Assembly: GCA_027292925.1 (NCBI GenBank)
Contig: JAPUGI010000261.1
Coordinates: 1-34,499 of the forward strand
Direction of reading: 5' to 3'
From: Gammaproteobacteria bacterium
GTDB lineage: Bacteria > Pseudomonadota > Gammaproteobacteria > Pseudomonadales > Azotimanducaceae
DNA: 34,499 nucleotides
In this document: one piece after another, positions 5,139-12,991 of the stretch
Numbering within the stretch: position 1 is the stretch's first letter
How the letters are laid out: each line of letters opens with the position of its first letter
Notes under the pieces: model-generated
Database searches by the model: none
The model's input: the letters and a program-made list of their open reading frames with translations, nothing else
What the model was told of the DNA's origin: nothing
Translations under genes and position numbers: made by a program

Positions 5139-5852
5139 ATGCTGCTCCCACAATCGGGAGCACTTGAGTTGAAAGAATATCGGCAACATCGATTCGAAAG
5201 ACCGCAAGGCGCCACTGAAATCCTGCTGGTCAGGCATGGCGAATCTCAGCCTGCAAATCCGGATAAACCCTTTCCCCTTGTAGATGGTCAGGGCGACCCT
5301 GCCCTGGGGGAAGTCGGTAAAGCACAGGCGATAAGAGTTGGGCAGAGACTGCAACACCTGCCAATCGATTCAGTCTATGTCACCAACTTGCGCCGCACCC
5401 AGGAAACAGCGGCTCCACTATGTGCTCATATCGGTCTCACTCCCACAGTTACAGCAGATCTAAGGGAAGTCCACCTGGGCGATTGGGAAGGTGGAATATT
5501 CCGCATCAAGGCACAGGAGCAGGATCCAGTATTTATGCGAATGCAGCAGGAACAGCGCTGGGATGTCATTCCCGGGGCTGAGTCCCTGCAGCTTTTACAA
5601 GAACGGGTGCAACGAGGTTTGGACCGGATCGCCGCCAGTCATCCTGACCAGTTGATCGTTGCCGTGGTACACGGCGGGGTCATCGGGCATATCATCGCCC
5701 GAGCGACCGGTGCCGCTCCCTTCGCATTTAACGGTGCAAACAATGGTTCCATCAGCCACATAGTGATGCATGCCGGTAACATAATAGTTAGAGGCTTTAA
5801 CGATTCTTGCCATCTAGAGCCCTCAGCGGTTTTTTCTAAAGAGGGTAGCTAA
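5139..5852 (+). CDS. Histidine phosphatase family protein (phosphoglycerate mutase-like)
   Basis: ILLVRHGES, VTNLRRTQETA and VAVVHGGVIGHII motifs. Confidence 0.9.
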   Translation: MLLPQSGALELKEYRQHRFERPQGATEILLVRHGESQPANPDKPFPLVDGQGDPALGEVGKAQAIRVGQRLQHLPIDSVYVTNLRRTQETAAPLCAHIGLTPTVTADLREVHLGDWEGGIFRIKAQEQDPVFMRMQQEQRWDVIPGAESLQLLQERVQRGLDRIAASHPDQLIVAVVHGGVIGHIIARATGAAPFAFNGANNGSISHIVMHAGNIIVRGFNDSCHLEPSAVFSKEGS

Positions 5853-7354
5853 TGCCTGCCTATCAGAATTTGTTCAGGCAATTCAAAAAAATCGCAGACC
5901 TGGAGCATGTGCAGTCCATCAGTTTTTGGGATGAGGCTTCGATGATGCCAACTGGCGGCGGGGAAGCTCGAGGTCAGGCAATGGCAACGTTAGGGGTCCT
6001 GATACACGAATTAAAAACAGATTCCAGGATAAAGGACTGGCTGGAGCAGGCTAACGGCGAAGACCTGGATGAGATGCAGACGGCGAATGTTCGGGAAATT
6101 GCGCGGGAACATCGCGAGGCAACCTGCCTGACAGCAGACCTTGTGCATAGATTGAGGCTCGTTTCTTCGGAATGTGAACAGGCCTGGCGGCAGTATCGTG
6201 GTGACAATAATTGGACAGAAATGCAGCCGCTACTGCAAGAAGTTATCGCCCTGGCTCGAGAAGAGGCCGCAATGAGGGCAGCCTCGACCGGAATGTCTTT
6301 GTACGACGCTATGCTGGATGTTCATGAACCGGGGATGACCGTTAAACAACTGGGTAGCCTGTTTACGGAACTCAAATCCTTTCTGCCCGGCTTTATTGAT
6401 GAAGTATTGGAGCATCAAAAACAGCAGCCCGTTATTTCCGTGGGCGACAATTTCCCGGTGGATAAACAAAGGGAATTGGGAATATCAATCATGGGAACGC
6501 TCTGATTCGATTTTGTCCATGGGCGCCTGGACGTGAGTCATCATCCTTTTTGCGGTGGAGTCCCGGATGATGTGCGAATTACCACCCGCTATTTTGATGA
6601 TAATTTTGTGCAGTCCCTGATGGGGGTTATTCATGAGACCGGTCATGCCATGTATGAGCAGGGTCTACCCAGGGAATGGCGTGGTCAACCGGTAGGTACG
6701 GCCCTCAGTGCGGGAACCCATGAAAGCCAGTCATTGTTGATGGAAATGCAGGCCTGTCGTTCCGTTGAATTTATCCAGTTTCTGACACCCATCGCACAGA
6801 AGATATTCCTTGGGCATGAAAGCGTTGATCCGGCCTGGAGTGTTGATAACCTGCACCGGCTGTATACAAAAGTAGAAAAGAGCTACATCCGTGTGGACGC
6901 AGATGAAGTGACTTATCCATTGCACGTGATATTAAGATTCGAAATCGAGAAAGACTTGATTGAGGGTAGTGCGGAAGTCCGGGATCTGCCGGAAATGTGG
7001 AATACAAAAATGCAGCAATACTTGTCGCTGTCAACAACAGGTAACTTCGCAGATGGATGTCTTCAGGATGTACATTGGCCGTCGGCACTGTTTGGTTACT
7101 TCCCCACTTATTCAATCGGTGCAATGACAGCCGCCCAGTTTTTTTCAGCAGCAAAAGCTCAAGTGCCGGAGATCCTGGAGGAAATCCGAAAAGGAAATTT
7201 CGTCCCCCTGTTAAGCTGGTTACGAAAAAATATACACAGCAAAGGAAAGTTTCTGTCTTTCGATGAGTTGTTAACGAGTGCTACCGGTGAGCCGCTGAAC
7301 GTAGAATATTTTAAGCGTCACTTACAGGAAAGATATTTAGGTCCGCTAGGCTAA
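5852..7354 (+). pseudogene. M32 carboxypeptidase (carboxypeptidase Taq family) interrupted by in-frame TGA at 6503-6505
   Basis: ORFs 5852-6505 and 6533-7354 are in the same frame. Across the stop the reading is GISIMGTL-*-FDFVHGRLDVSHHPFCGGVPDDVRITTRY, contiguous with M32; the HETGH zinc motif lies downstream. Confidence 0.85.
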
Positions 7355-9034: not shown

Positions 9035-9781
9035 TCACAGGCGCTGCCACAAAGTATCAAAAGAAATCTGCATAACGAGTGCGATCGCGTCAGAGTTCAG
9101 CAGGACCGCGGTTGGGTAGTCTCCCTGGACCAGGGAAATCATGACACATTTCGGGGGGTAGATCGCGACGTAGCTGGCTGCATGATCACTGGCTTCTGTC
9201 TCTATCCACTTGCGTTCTGCAAGCGGGGCATCTTCACCGCCATCGCCAATCGCAATAACATTGACAGAGATCCCTTTGCGTACCCGTTGTCGGGTGAAGT
9301 TAGGGAATGGCCGATATAAATATTTACGAATTTGTTTGGAAGAATAGACCCGGTACCGCTTTTGCGCTTGAGTCTCAACTGTCTTGAGAATGTCCTTTAG
9401 GACAAACTCAATGCCCTCGTCTCCCTCGTAGTGATGTACATTGATGGTGCTCGAGTCGGGTTTGATGTTATTGAGGTCTGGCAGGATGTCGTGGCGTAAT
9501 ACATCGGTTGCCCTCGCCAGGATATCTTGTTTCTCCTCGGCAATTTTCACAAGTTGATCCGGTGGTTCGGCGCAGAAAAACTTTCGTTTACCCTTTGGGA
9601 AGTAGCTCACCAGCGAACGGGTCCGCAGGGTCTTCAGTTCCTCGTAGGTTGTACCGCGATTAAGGCCCGCACCGGTAGCGATGTCTCGAATGGAACCCGG
9701 GCCTTGTTTTAGTAACGTCAGATAGATGTCAGTCTGCCGGTCAGAGAGTCCAATCTGTTTTAAGGTTTCGTGTATTATCAT
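9035..9781 (-). CDS. TrmB family transcriptional regulator
   Basis: N-terminal TrmB-type winged helix (LKQIGLSDRQTDIYLTLLKQGPGSIRDIATGAGLNRGTTYEELKTL) with C-terminal effector-like domain. Confidence 0.82.
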   Translation of the reverse strand: MIIHETLKQIGLSDRQTDIYLTLLKQGPGSIRDIATGAGLNRGTTYEELKTLRTRSLVSYFPKGKRKFFCAEPPDQLVKIAEEKQDILARATDVLRHDILPDLNNIKPDSSTINVHHYEGDEGIEFVLKDILKTVETQAQKRYRVYSSKQIRKYLYRPFPNFTRQRVRKGISVNVIAIGDGGEDAPLAERKWIETEASDHAASYVAIYPPKCVMISLVQGDYPTAVLLNSDAIALVMQISFDTLWQRL

Positions 9782-9798: not shown

Positions 9799-9817
9799 TG
9801 TCAAATAAATGATGACA
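9799..9817. promoter_or_regulatory. Candidate operator 1 (TGTCA-N9-TGACA)
   Basis: TGTCAAATAAATGATGACA, 18 nt upstream of the trmB-like start; same architecture as 9872-9890. Confidence 0.6.
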
Positions 9818-9871
9818 ATTAGTATTGATGTCAAAAAAGATATGTATATATTGCGATTTATTATGTATTAG

Positions 9872-9890
9872 TGTCAATTAGAGTATGACA
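9872..9890. promoter_or_regulatory. Candidate operator 2 (TGTCA-N9-TGACA)
   Basis: TGTCAATTAGAGTATGACA immediately before the glmS-like ATG at 9892. Confidence 0.6.
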
Positions 9891-9891
9891 T

Positions 9892-11643
9892 ATGTGTGGA
9901 ATTGTTGCTTGTGCGGGTGAGGATGTAGGTGATCTGGCGGTTGCTGGATTGCAACGGCTCCAATATCGGGGTTATGACAGCTATGGATTTGCCTGGGTCA
10001 ATGAAGAAAAAGGCGTAATACAGACAAGGAAGAGTGTCGACTCGCTGGATGACCTGCAGGATCAGCTGCCTCGTTGTAACGCGGTGTTGGGGCATACGCG
10101 CTGGGCAACCCATGGAGGAGTCAGTGTAGAAAACTGTCATCCACATTCTGCACGCAACCTGGAGTTTTCCCTGGTACACAACGGCATCGTGGAAAATTAC
10201 CAGACCTTGAAAGAAACAATCGTAACCCCGGCATACGTAAGTGATACCGATACAGAGGTCATTGTACGGCTATTGGAGATTGCCCTGAAAACGGCCTGTT
10301 CCCGTCCCGAGGCGTTGCGCGATGTGCTTAACAGGCTTGATGGCAGGAATACAATCGTAGTGCTGTTTTCAGATGGTGAGATGCTGGGCGTTCGTGAAGG
10401 TTCCCCGCTAATGCTCGGCAAGGCTAGCAACCAGTATTTCCTCGGTTCCGACGTCTTCAGTTTTGCCAGGACTACAACCGTTTGTTGTCCTGTTGCGCAG
10501 CGGCACATAGTTAGAATCAAGGATCAGCGAGTTGAAATGTTCGATGAAACCGGTGAGCCGTGTGAAATTGAATGGGTCCTGGCAGAGTTGCCTGAAACTG
10601 ATGTTGGCAGAGACGGTTATCCGCACTACATGCTGAAGGAAATTATGGAGCAGTGGCAAACCGTTTCGAGGCAAGGAATGTTGGCTGGAACCGATCTGGA
10701 TAACTTCGTCCAGGAATTAAAACATTGCGGGAATCTGCTGGTAACCGGGGCGGGTGGTGCCTATTTCGCCTGCGTGCAGATCGCCTGGCTGCTTCGCGAA
10801 CTGGCAGGATTCAGGGTTCTTGCAGTACCAGCTTACGAAATCGATTCCATGAAGCCGTTGTATAAGCCAGGCGACTTCCTGTTGGCTATCAGCCAAAGCG
10901 GTGAGACTGCCGATACGATTCAGGCCATCGAAACCGCGACGGCATGGGGTATGCGGGTGGCGTCCCTGGTCAATATGCCCATGTCGACGCTGGCTTTTTT
11001 ATCGGAATTCAGTTTCGCCAATCATAGTGGTCCGGAAATTTGCGTCCTTTCCACTAAATCGGCAACAGCACAGGTAACTTTTGGCTATCTGCTAGCAAAA
11101 TCGTTGGCTGGTCAGAACGATACAGGGGAACATATTGATAAGTTGAGCAGTGCCCTCAGCCGGTATCTAACAGATACGACGTCAAGAGAATTGCAAGAAT
11201 TGGCAGCCAGTCTTTTGCCAACTCACAATCTGTTTATTCTTGGCAGAGGGCTTTTTTACGGAAGCGCATTGATGGCAGCACTCAACATCAAGGAAGCAAG
11301 TTATTTTCATGCGGAAGCCTTCGCCGCGGGGGAATTGAAGCATGGTGTTATCGCGCTGATCGAAGAGGGTGTTCCGGTGATCTTGTTCGTCGACAAAGAC
11401 GATTCCTATATGCTAAATGTCGCGTCAGAAGTAAAGTCACGTGGCGCCCGGGTCATCGGCATCGCTTATGAAAACAACGAGCTTTTTGATGATTTTATCT
11501 GCATGCCGACGCTTTCGGACCCATTGCTTGCGACGGTTTGCGGGATGGTTCCCTGCCAGCTTATTGCCTATCACCTTGGCGTTCATGCTGGGATCAATCC
11601 GGACAAACCCCGAAATCTCGCGAAGAGTGTGACAGTGCAATAA
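9892..11643 (+). CDS. glmS: Glutamine-fructose-6-phosphate aminotransferase (isomerizing)-like protein
   Basis: N-terminal MCGIVACAG (Ntn Cys), LGHTRWATHG, HNGIVENY; SIS motif ISQSGETADT; C-terminal ELKHGVIALIEEG and NLAKSVTVQ. Confidence 0.88.
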   Translation: MCGIVACAGEDVGDLAVAGLQRLQYRGYDSYGFAWVNEEKGVIQTRKSVDSLDDLQDQLPRCNAVLGHTRWATHGGVSVENCHPHSARNLEFSLVHNGIVENYQTLKETIVTPAYVSDTDTEVIVRLLEIALKTACSRPEALRDVLNRLDGRNTIVVLFSDGEMLGVREGSPLMLGKASNQYFLGSDVFSFARTTTVCCPVAQRHIVRIKDQRVEMFDETGEPCEIEWVLAELPETDVGRDGYPHYMLKEIMEQWQTVSRQGMLAGTDLDNFVQELKHCGNLLVTGAGGAYFACVQIAWLLRELAGFRVLAVPAYEIDSMKPLYKPGDFLLAISQSGETADTIQAIETATAWGMRVASLVNMPMSTLAFLSEFSFANHSGPEICVLSTKSATAQVTFGYLLAKSLAGQNDTGEHIDKLSSALSRYLTDTTSRELQELAASLLPTHNLFILGRGLFYGSALMAALNIKEASYFHAEAFAAGELKHGVIALIEEGVPVILFVDKDDSYMLNVASEVKSRGARVIGIAYENNELFDDFICMPTLSDPLLATVCGMVPCQLIAYHLGVHAGINPDKPRNLAKSVTVQ

Positions 11644-11651
11644 TCGGTATA

Positions 11652-12227
11652 ATGTTCTACCCGAACGATAAGGCTTGCCTGGTAATTGCTGTGAGATACT
11701 CCGTCGTTACGATGCTGATAACTGCATTGACCGCCTCGAGTCATCAGGTCCACGCCAGTGATGATGTGGTGCTTGACCTGTTAAAAGGGTATGAGTGGCG
11801 TTTGCAGGAAGACAAGTTGCAGAGTATTGGCCCCGATGCTTACAAGTCGTTACTGAATATTGCTGATGACGCTGGCCAGGTCAATTTTATTCGTGCCAGG
11901 GCAGCACTTGCGTTGACGATGTTTCCCAACGATGAGGTTTGGGATTTTTATGAACGTGAGATCACGATGGGGCAGAACAGAATCAGGCGTAGACAATTGG
12001 TGCAGAATTTTTGTACATCTTTTTTACAGACGAGACCCAATAGAGTCGAATCAGCGTTGATGCCTTTGCTGAGCGCATCAGATGCTCACTTGCGCAGCAA
12101 CACTGCCAGGTGTTTGCAGAAAATCGACAGCGAGCAAGCGAGAGCCGCACTCGAATCCTATCGCAGAACTATATCTGAAGCCTGGGAATTGCGTGCCGCC
12201 GGGTTCGACATGAAGGAAAAAAGATGA
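11652..12227 (+). CDS. Secreted HEAT-repeat-like hypothetical protein
   Basis: ATG at 11652 gives a hydrophobic leader (VVTMLITALTASSHQVHA) followed by helical-repeat pattern. Stop overlaps the next ATG (ATGA). Confidence 0.6.
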   Translation: MFYPNDKACLVIAVRYSVVTMLITALTASSHQVHASDDVVLDLLKGYEWRLQEDKLQSIGPDAYKSLLNIADDAGQVNFIRARAALALTMFPNDEVWDFYEREITMGQNRIRRRQLVQNFCTSFLQTRPNRVESALMPLLSASDAHLRSNTARCLQKIDSEQARAALESYRRTISEAWELRAAGFDMKEKR

Positions 12228-12991
12228 ATGAGGTTCAACTTGATGATATTGAACTCGCGACATTCCGGCGAGACGGTTATGTCGTTTGCCGGGCGTTTGC
12301 AAGCCGAGACCAATGTGATGAGTTAGAGGCAGTCGCCGGGGAACATCTTGCTGCACAACTGGCGCCTATCGAATATGAGATCGATGTTCAGTATCCCGGC
12401 GCGCCTGCCAGTTCGGATGCAGAAGGTGCGGAAACTTCCAGACGTCTGTTGCAGGCCTGTAGCCGTCATGAGGTTTTTCGACACTGGGCAACTTCTGGCG
12501 AACTCGTGTCTGTCCTGCGTGAATTATTCGCCAATGACTCACTGGCACTTTCCCAATGCCACCACAATTGTATTATGACCAAGCAACCCGGTTACAGCAG
12601 TGCCACCTTGTGGCACCAGGACAACCGTTACTGGTCGTTTGATCAGCAAAATCTAATTAGCGTCTGGCTGGCTCTTGGTAATGAGACCCATGAAAATGGT
12701 TGCCTGCGGGTTATTCCAGGGACTCACTTGATGGAAATCGATACCGGCAGGTTTGATGCTGCACTGTTTTTGCGAGCCGACCTGCCGGAAAATCAACCGC
12801 TAATTATGCAATCTGAATTTGTGCCGCTGAACAAGGGGGATGTGCTCTTTTTCCATAGTCGCTTGTTCCATGCCGCAGGACACAATTCCACGGAAAAGAC
12901 CAAGTTCTCGCTGGTGTTTACCTATCACGAATCGACCAATCACCCGATTCAGAACACGAGATCCGCGAAATTCCCGTCTATTGCGGTTTAG
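12224..12991 (+). CDS. Phytanoyl-CoA dioxygenase (PhyH) family protein
   Basis: LWHQDNRYWSF (HxD), LALGNETHENGCLRVIPGTHL and LFFHSRLFHAAGHNST match the PhyH 2-OG/Fe(II) core. Confidence 0.87.
   Translation: MNEVQLDDIELATFRRDGYVVCRAFASRDQCDELEAVAGEHLAAQLAPIEYEIDVQYPGAPASSDAEGAETSRRLLQACSRHEVFRHWATSGELVSVLRELFANDSLALSQCHHNCIMTKQPGYSSATLWHQDNRYWSFDQQNLISVWLALGNETHENGCLRVIPGTHLMEIDTGRFDAALFLRADLPENQPLIMQSEFVPLNKGDVLFFHSRLFHAAGHNSTEKTKFSLVFTYHESTNHPIQNTRSAKFPSIAV

Follow-up and report, generated by a model that had tools for sequence, protein, structure and literature searches.

A TGTCA-N9-TGACA palindrome as the putative operator of a TrmB-family regulator of glucosamine-6-phosphate synthesis genes in Pseudomonadales

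The window analysed here, that is, the whole stretch of 34,499 nucleotides of contig JAPUGI010000261.1 (assembly GCA_027292925.1) from a gammaproteobacterium of the Azotimanducaceae, contains a TrmB-family gene (trmB) and a glmS paralog (glmS2) that diverge across a 110-bp gap, in which a pair of TGTCA-N9-TGACA palindromes is found. The features of the locus are as follows.

9035..9781, minus strand: TrmB-family regulator gene, 248 aa, with an N-terminal winged helix (PF01978) and a C-terminal PLD-like domain
9799..9817, no strand: putative operator 1 (trmB-proximal), TGTCAAATAAATGATGACA, 7 bp upstream of the glm-ward TTG of the -35
9825..9830, plus strand: predicted -35 of the glmS2-ward promoter, TTGATG, its TTG kept across families and the remaining hexamer not
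9847..9852, plus strand: predicted -10 of the glmS2-ward promoter, TATATT, after a spacer of 16
9872..9890, no strand: putative operator 2 (glmS2-proximal), TGTCAATTAGAGTATGACA, with 1 bp between its end and the glmS2 ATG
9892..11643, plus strand: glmS2, glutamine--fructose-6-phosphate transaminase paralog, 583 aa, TIGR01135 and NF001484 above cutoffs
11652..12227, plus strand: HEAT-repeat protein gene just 3' of glmS2, PF13646 at cutoff, ATG chosen by eye
12224..12991, plus strand: PhyH-type dioxygenase gene (PF05721, E=2.7e-38), sharing 4 bases with the HEAT gene

The sequence-only reading had called the two divergent genes TrmB-like and GlmS-like, and both calls are right. The glmS2 product scores 466.8 bits against TIGR01135 (cutoff 418, residues 2-582), and its translation, by reading, contains the GlmS motifs (N-terminal Met-Cys, RLxYRGYDS and C-terminal NLAKSVTV). 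The same genome also has a second glmS of canonical type, which is 35% identical to glmS2 and lies on another contig in the order atpC-glmU-glmS. In a tree the glmS2 type forms its own clade apart from housekeeping GlmS (support 100/100), with members in the window's family (f1), Pseudomaricurvus, Exilibacterium, Zooshikella and Aliikangiella. The HEAT gene order after glmS2 is conserved in f1, and the HEAT and PhyH genes are possible members of a glmS2 operon. In f1 genomes without glmS2 (loci L056-L058, L098-L100 and L103), HEAT and PhyH, or PhyH alone, are directly divergent from trmB, the gap still contains one operator or both, and these genes may thus be regulon members. Upstream of trmB at L096, both operators and a glmS2-like start, ATGTGTGG, are present yet there is no glmS2 match, possibly reflecting a decayed glmS2. 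Elsewhere in the window, an M32 carboxypeptidase-like gene (5852-7354) is split into two frames (5852-6505 and 6533-7354) where relatives have one of about 498-501 aa; the split is a frameshift or an assembly error.

The TrmB family is known mainly from archaeal sugar regulation. In the regulator, PF01978 (E=1.2e-10, 41.5 bits against a cutoff of 25.6, residues 7-74) is the only domain above cutoff; ROK and DeoR domains are absent, and NagC, of the ROK family, belongs to a protein family unrelated to TrmB. By sequence, the proposal of a bacterial TrmB regulator thus stands as regards the family, without a known TrmB sugar-binding domain being detected: PF11495 (the sugar-binding Gly/Glu effector domain) gave no match up to E=5, the TrmB/TrmBL1 equivalogs NF040851 and NF047390 reached about 20-22 bits against 600-650 through the shared HTH only, and a PDB sequence search returned HTH matches only. 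An AlphaFold2 model built from an alignment of 46 orthologs (pLDDT 89) has archaeal TrmBL2 and TrmB as its best Foldseek matches, and the C-terminal domain, searched by itself, finds TrmBL2, members of the PLD superfamily and 2f5t, the sugar-binding domain of TrmB (E=8e-5). This predicted PLD-like fold resembles 2f5t, and distant kinship with the TrmB sugar-binding domain is therefore likely. Strictly conserved C-terminal Arg and Lys residues among orthologs (e.g. R152, R166, R190 and K191) would suit a phosphorylated metabolite as ligand. A further trait of the TrmB family is seen in the DNA, namely palindromic sites near the regulator's own and target promoters.

The two palindromes lie where they were originally pointed out, at 9799-9817 and 9872-9890, with common arms (TGTCA/TGACA), a 9-nt spacer and a start-to-start distance of 73 bp. 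They are the only exact TGTCA-N9-TGACA matches in the window (expected 0.09), and two exact matches arose in 1 of 100 dinucleotide shuffles and once in 200,000 simulated gaps (order-1 Markov, 110 bp, 25% GC); a repeated 5-N9-5 palindrome with any shared arm appeared in 27 of 20,000 simulated gaps. The 3.5-Mb genome contains four exact matches, two of them the gap pair and the other two, with GC-rich spacers, inside open frames of 200-290 codons. The consensus of 63 distinct exact sites from across the genomes is tTGTCAt-N7-tTGACAa, AT-rich at its centre, the arms being fixed by the search. A lone TGTCA at 9829-9833, noted earlier as a half site, is present in the sequence; it is not conserved among orthologous loci and was dropped as a functional element.

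Orthologs of the regulator (50-90% identity) occur in 69 of 392 genomes of the order, in several families, and the rest of the class yields weak partial matches only (5 of 369 genomes). Hosts in the GTDB scan are Endozoicomonas, Zooshikella, Marinomonas, Saccharospirillum, Reinekea, Balneatrix, Amphritea, Neptuniibacter and uncultured Pseudomonadales. At most sampled loci trmB is divergent from glmU-glmS (f8, f39, f40 and f41, often with ATP-synthase genes on the other flank) or from glmS2 (f1 and f36), and in these six families TGTCA-N9-TGACA lies between trmB and the divergent gene. Conservation in orthologous loci, on which the sequence-only reading had staked its proposal, was thus found, and the spacing recurs as well: among the 28 loci with two sites, each within 1 mismatch, it is 73 bp in 16 (from the five families f1, f8, f39, f40 and f41) and 71-75 bp in 24, the exceptions being 92, 92, 130 and 136, with genomes and loci related by descent and these counts hence made up of non-independent events. 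Many other orthologous loci have a single site, which lies upstream of the glm -35; three Endozoicomonas loci (L087, L152 and L164) have no site within 1 mismatch; and at L056, L098 and L103 a site is kept upstream of trmB without adjacent glm genes. Upstream of trmB at L008 and L054 (genome G004, same genus), about 110 bp of CAATTTCAGGACACCCA-like repeats separate operator and trmB start. It could be argued that the palindromes arose by chance or that the 73-bp spacing is mere inherited similarity, and the f1 loci are indeed close relatives; the simulated chance of about 1 in 200,000, however, and the persistence of arms and spacing across families whose gaps are hardly alignable and differ in length, already contradict this idea, to which we attach next to no probability.

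What most informs the assignment of the sites is how they behave when the regulator and its target are separated. In Marinomonas and in f6 (Saccharospirillum, Reinekea and relatives), trmB lies apart from glmU-glmS and no site precedes it, so autoregulation is not universal. An exact site nevertheless precedes glmU in 3 of 3 Marinomonas genomes and, within f6, in G230, G347, G365, G309, G415, G381 and G077; the G431 site has one mismatch, and those of G120 and G181 have two. Among genomes of the order that lack trmB, 1 of 49 has a site (up to 1 mismatch) upstream of glmU, in a sample drawn from those glmU entries that matched best, with presence calls that depend on assembly completeness. The sole exception, G251 (f6, locus L250), has an exact site before glmU and no detected regulator, and is a case of recent trmB loss or an assembly gap. 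Furthermore, where trmB is beside glmS2, the canonical glmU has no site (0 of 5 genomes in f36 and 0 of 4 in f1, the window's own included; 0 of 9 in total), and in f1 genomes without glmS2 it has one, exact in G054, with one mismatch in G063 and shortened to TGTCA-N6-TGACA in G041. As far as sequence comparison can tell, the site goes with whichever glm genes the regulator targets, whether or not the two are linked, and it is mainly for this reason that we accept the operator inference.

The operator assignment first made from the window alone is thus strongly backed by comparative genomics, with the site conserved at trmB-glm loci, found with glmU when trmB is unlinked and nearly absent without trmB. 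These patterns make it highly probable that the TrmB-family protein owns the sites and controls glm. Neighbourhood by itself is no proof of binding, and a different glm-controlling regulator could own the sites with trmB a mere neighbour; we consider this improbable, since the site tracks the presence of trmB even when unlinked, is rare in trmB-less relatives and is kept upstream of trmB at the three loci without adjacent glm genes. Ownership by the TrmB-family protein also bears on the earlier proposal of TrmB control over amino-sugar synthesis, which is supported with one change: the ordinary target across the order is glmU-glmS, and the glmS of the window is a divergent paralog. The whole explanation, that TGTCA-N9-TGACA is the operator of an adjacent TrmB-family protein acting as a local control on the synthesis of glucosamine-6-phosphate and hence of UDP-GlcNAc, appears probable to us on these comparative grounds.

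We do not claim a large regulon, because matches away from glm come close to the reversed-pattern control: most exact genomic matches beyond glm and trmB lie in genes or have GC-rich spacers, and their rate is often near that of the control. In G230 (Reinekea forsetii), exact sites occur before pckA-like and fbp-like genes (L204 and L209) as well as before glmU. An extension of the regulon to fbp and pckA was rejected: the fbp site is not conserved in eight other f6 genomes, two of which have 2-mismatch sites.

The position of the sites relative to the promoter is similarly constrained. The TTGATG-N16-TATATT promoter suggested earlier at 9825-9852 is present and comparatively conserved; all promoters and transcription starts are consensus predictions only, the start in the window being predicted from the -10 at 9847-9852. 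Counted from this predicted glmS2 start, operator 1 spans about -60 to -42 (centre about -51) and operator 2 about +13 to +31. Exactly 7 bp after the trmB-proximal site, 41 of 46 glm-linked loci have a TTG, and a TAnnnT -10 usually comes 16 bp further on; Marinomonas has 7 bp between operator and TTG, and f6 has 9. The predicted glm-promoter -35 is degenerate (TTGnnn) and weak, and the site is upstream of it in nearly every family. At the f1 loci where trmB faces non-glm genes (L056-L058, L098-L100 and L103), no TTG at 7 bp with a matching -10 was found. By eye, glmS2 and most trmB starts have no clear Shine-Dalgarno, and operators fill that space. A predicted minus-strand promoter (TTGACA at 9804, CATGAT at 9777) overlies the trmB start and is not believed. 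Taken together, comparison establishes the association of candidate operator, regulator and glm genes, their spacing and their position relative to the predicted promoter.

From this arrangement we infer binding, the sign of regulation, contact between dimers and the nature of the ligand. The TrmB-family protein, presumably with one dimer per palindrome, would act on the divergent glm promoter, which belongs to glmS2 in the window and to glmU-glmS in most relatives; at linked loci it would also regulate trmB itself. First, operator 1 most likely assists the glm promoter, which we favour because it is upstream of a weak -35 and is kept even with trmB unlinked; on this positional evidence, an activating role seems somewhat the better bet. 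Second, operator 1 most likely represses trmB as well, autorepression being favoured because it adjoins the trmB start. Third, operator 2, in the families that have it, most likely represses or limits glm from just past the start, a role suggested by its location beyond the glm transcription start. Finally, the two bound dimers would be on the same DNA face and could possibly touch across 73 bp, and the signal read by the C-terminal PLD-like domain is probably some metabolite of the Fru6P/GlcN6P/UDP-GlcNAc branch.

The simplest competitor is a simple repressor, with both genes repressed from both operators through a block of RNA polymerase or a 73-bp loop, a sugar phosphate releasing the repression and no activation involved. 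Operator 2 ends 1 bp from the glmS2 ATG, operator 1 abuts the trmB start, and the spacing, about 7 turns, recurs in five families, all as such a repressor would have it. At many single-site loci, on the other hand, the site is upstream of the glm -35 and not over the promoter, it is retained there with trmB unlinked and thus serves glmU itself, and the -35 is degenerate, as in activated promoters; repression alone is therefore possible and rather doubtful. The regulator-proximal site keeps its standing as an operator, with the proviso that "operator" may not mean a repressor of glmS. Similarly, the earlier suggestion of same-face binding or looping survives in part, the recurrent spacing making looping possible and not needed: a constant 73 bp alone is no proof of looping, since each site has a fixed place relative to the promoter, and looping is not essential because single-site families exist. 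Contact between the two bound dimers is thus a tentative element of the model in which operator 1 assists and operator 2 limits glm.

Several known systems offer comparisons. At locus L316 of f21, a DeoR-type regulator, which we take to be GlmR as in Pseudomonas, sits between glmU and glmS; it is likewise a local regulator gene embedded at glmU-glmS, but belongs to the DeoR family and lies inside the operon, whereas the gene here is divergent. The f21 genomes sampled have no TrmB and no TGTCA-N9-TGACA site. Archaeal TrmB, TrmBL1/Tgr and Halobacterium VNG1451C share PF01978 and palindromic operators with the present system, and the position rule too, archaeal TrmB relatives activating where their site lies upstream and repressing where it lies downstream (PMC4158304); judged from the predicted fold, the PLD-like core of the effector domain would also be shared (2f5t, 3qph and 5bpi). 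The archaeal operators are TACT-N3-AGTA, TATCAC-N5-GTGATA or TACT-N7-8-GAGTA, in contrast to TGTCA-N9-TGACA, and unlike archaeal TrmB, of about 340 aa, the 248-aa protein here works at predicted sigma-70-type bacterial promoters, has no detected PF11495 and has amino-sugar synthesis as its candidate target.

A closer parallel in function is E. coli NagC, which, in the part of PMC2806358 that cites Plumbridge 1995, is an activator of glmUS that acts at a box adjoining promoter P1; target operon, promoter-adjacent activating site and a second, separated site would all be alike. NagC also controls amino-sugar breakdown, whereas the regulator here is usually encoded beside its target, with sites 73 bp apart. 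NagQ and NagR control GlcNAc catabolism, in contrast to the glm synthesis genes here; comparative genomics has described amino-sugar regulons of Proteobacteria including Reinekea in a study that covers NagC, NagQ and NagR and leaves glm genes and a TrmB protein unmentioned (PMC5343134). A full-text search, with subscription papers and databases such as RegPrecise beyond its reach, found no description of a TrmB regulator of glmS or glmU, and an earlier in-silico prediction is possible. Acinetobacter "TrmB" papers concern an unrelated tRNA methyltransferase and were set aside, as was EnfR, which belongs to another family.

GlmS is the entry to peptidoglycan and LPS precursors, and its known control in bacteria is strikingly diverse, including the glmS ribozyme, the GlmYZ small RNAs, NagC and the DeoR-type GlmR. 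A TrmB-family glm regulator would add another independent solution. In its widest form, the proposal is of an order-wide TrmB-family UDP-GlcNAc switch that activates from about -51, represses from a second site 73 bp away and responds, by way of a PLD-like domain, to an amino-sugar or Fru6P-branch metabolite, and that in some lineages has moved wholly onto a fast-evolving glmS paralog, with loss of the housekeeping glmUS operator; this could well be so, and we stop a little short of calling it probable. The operator definition is ready for direct test, and its sites precede glucosamine-synthesis genes in many marine Pseudomonadales, where they would make it possible to trace how an operator has stayed with one copy of a duplicated gene.
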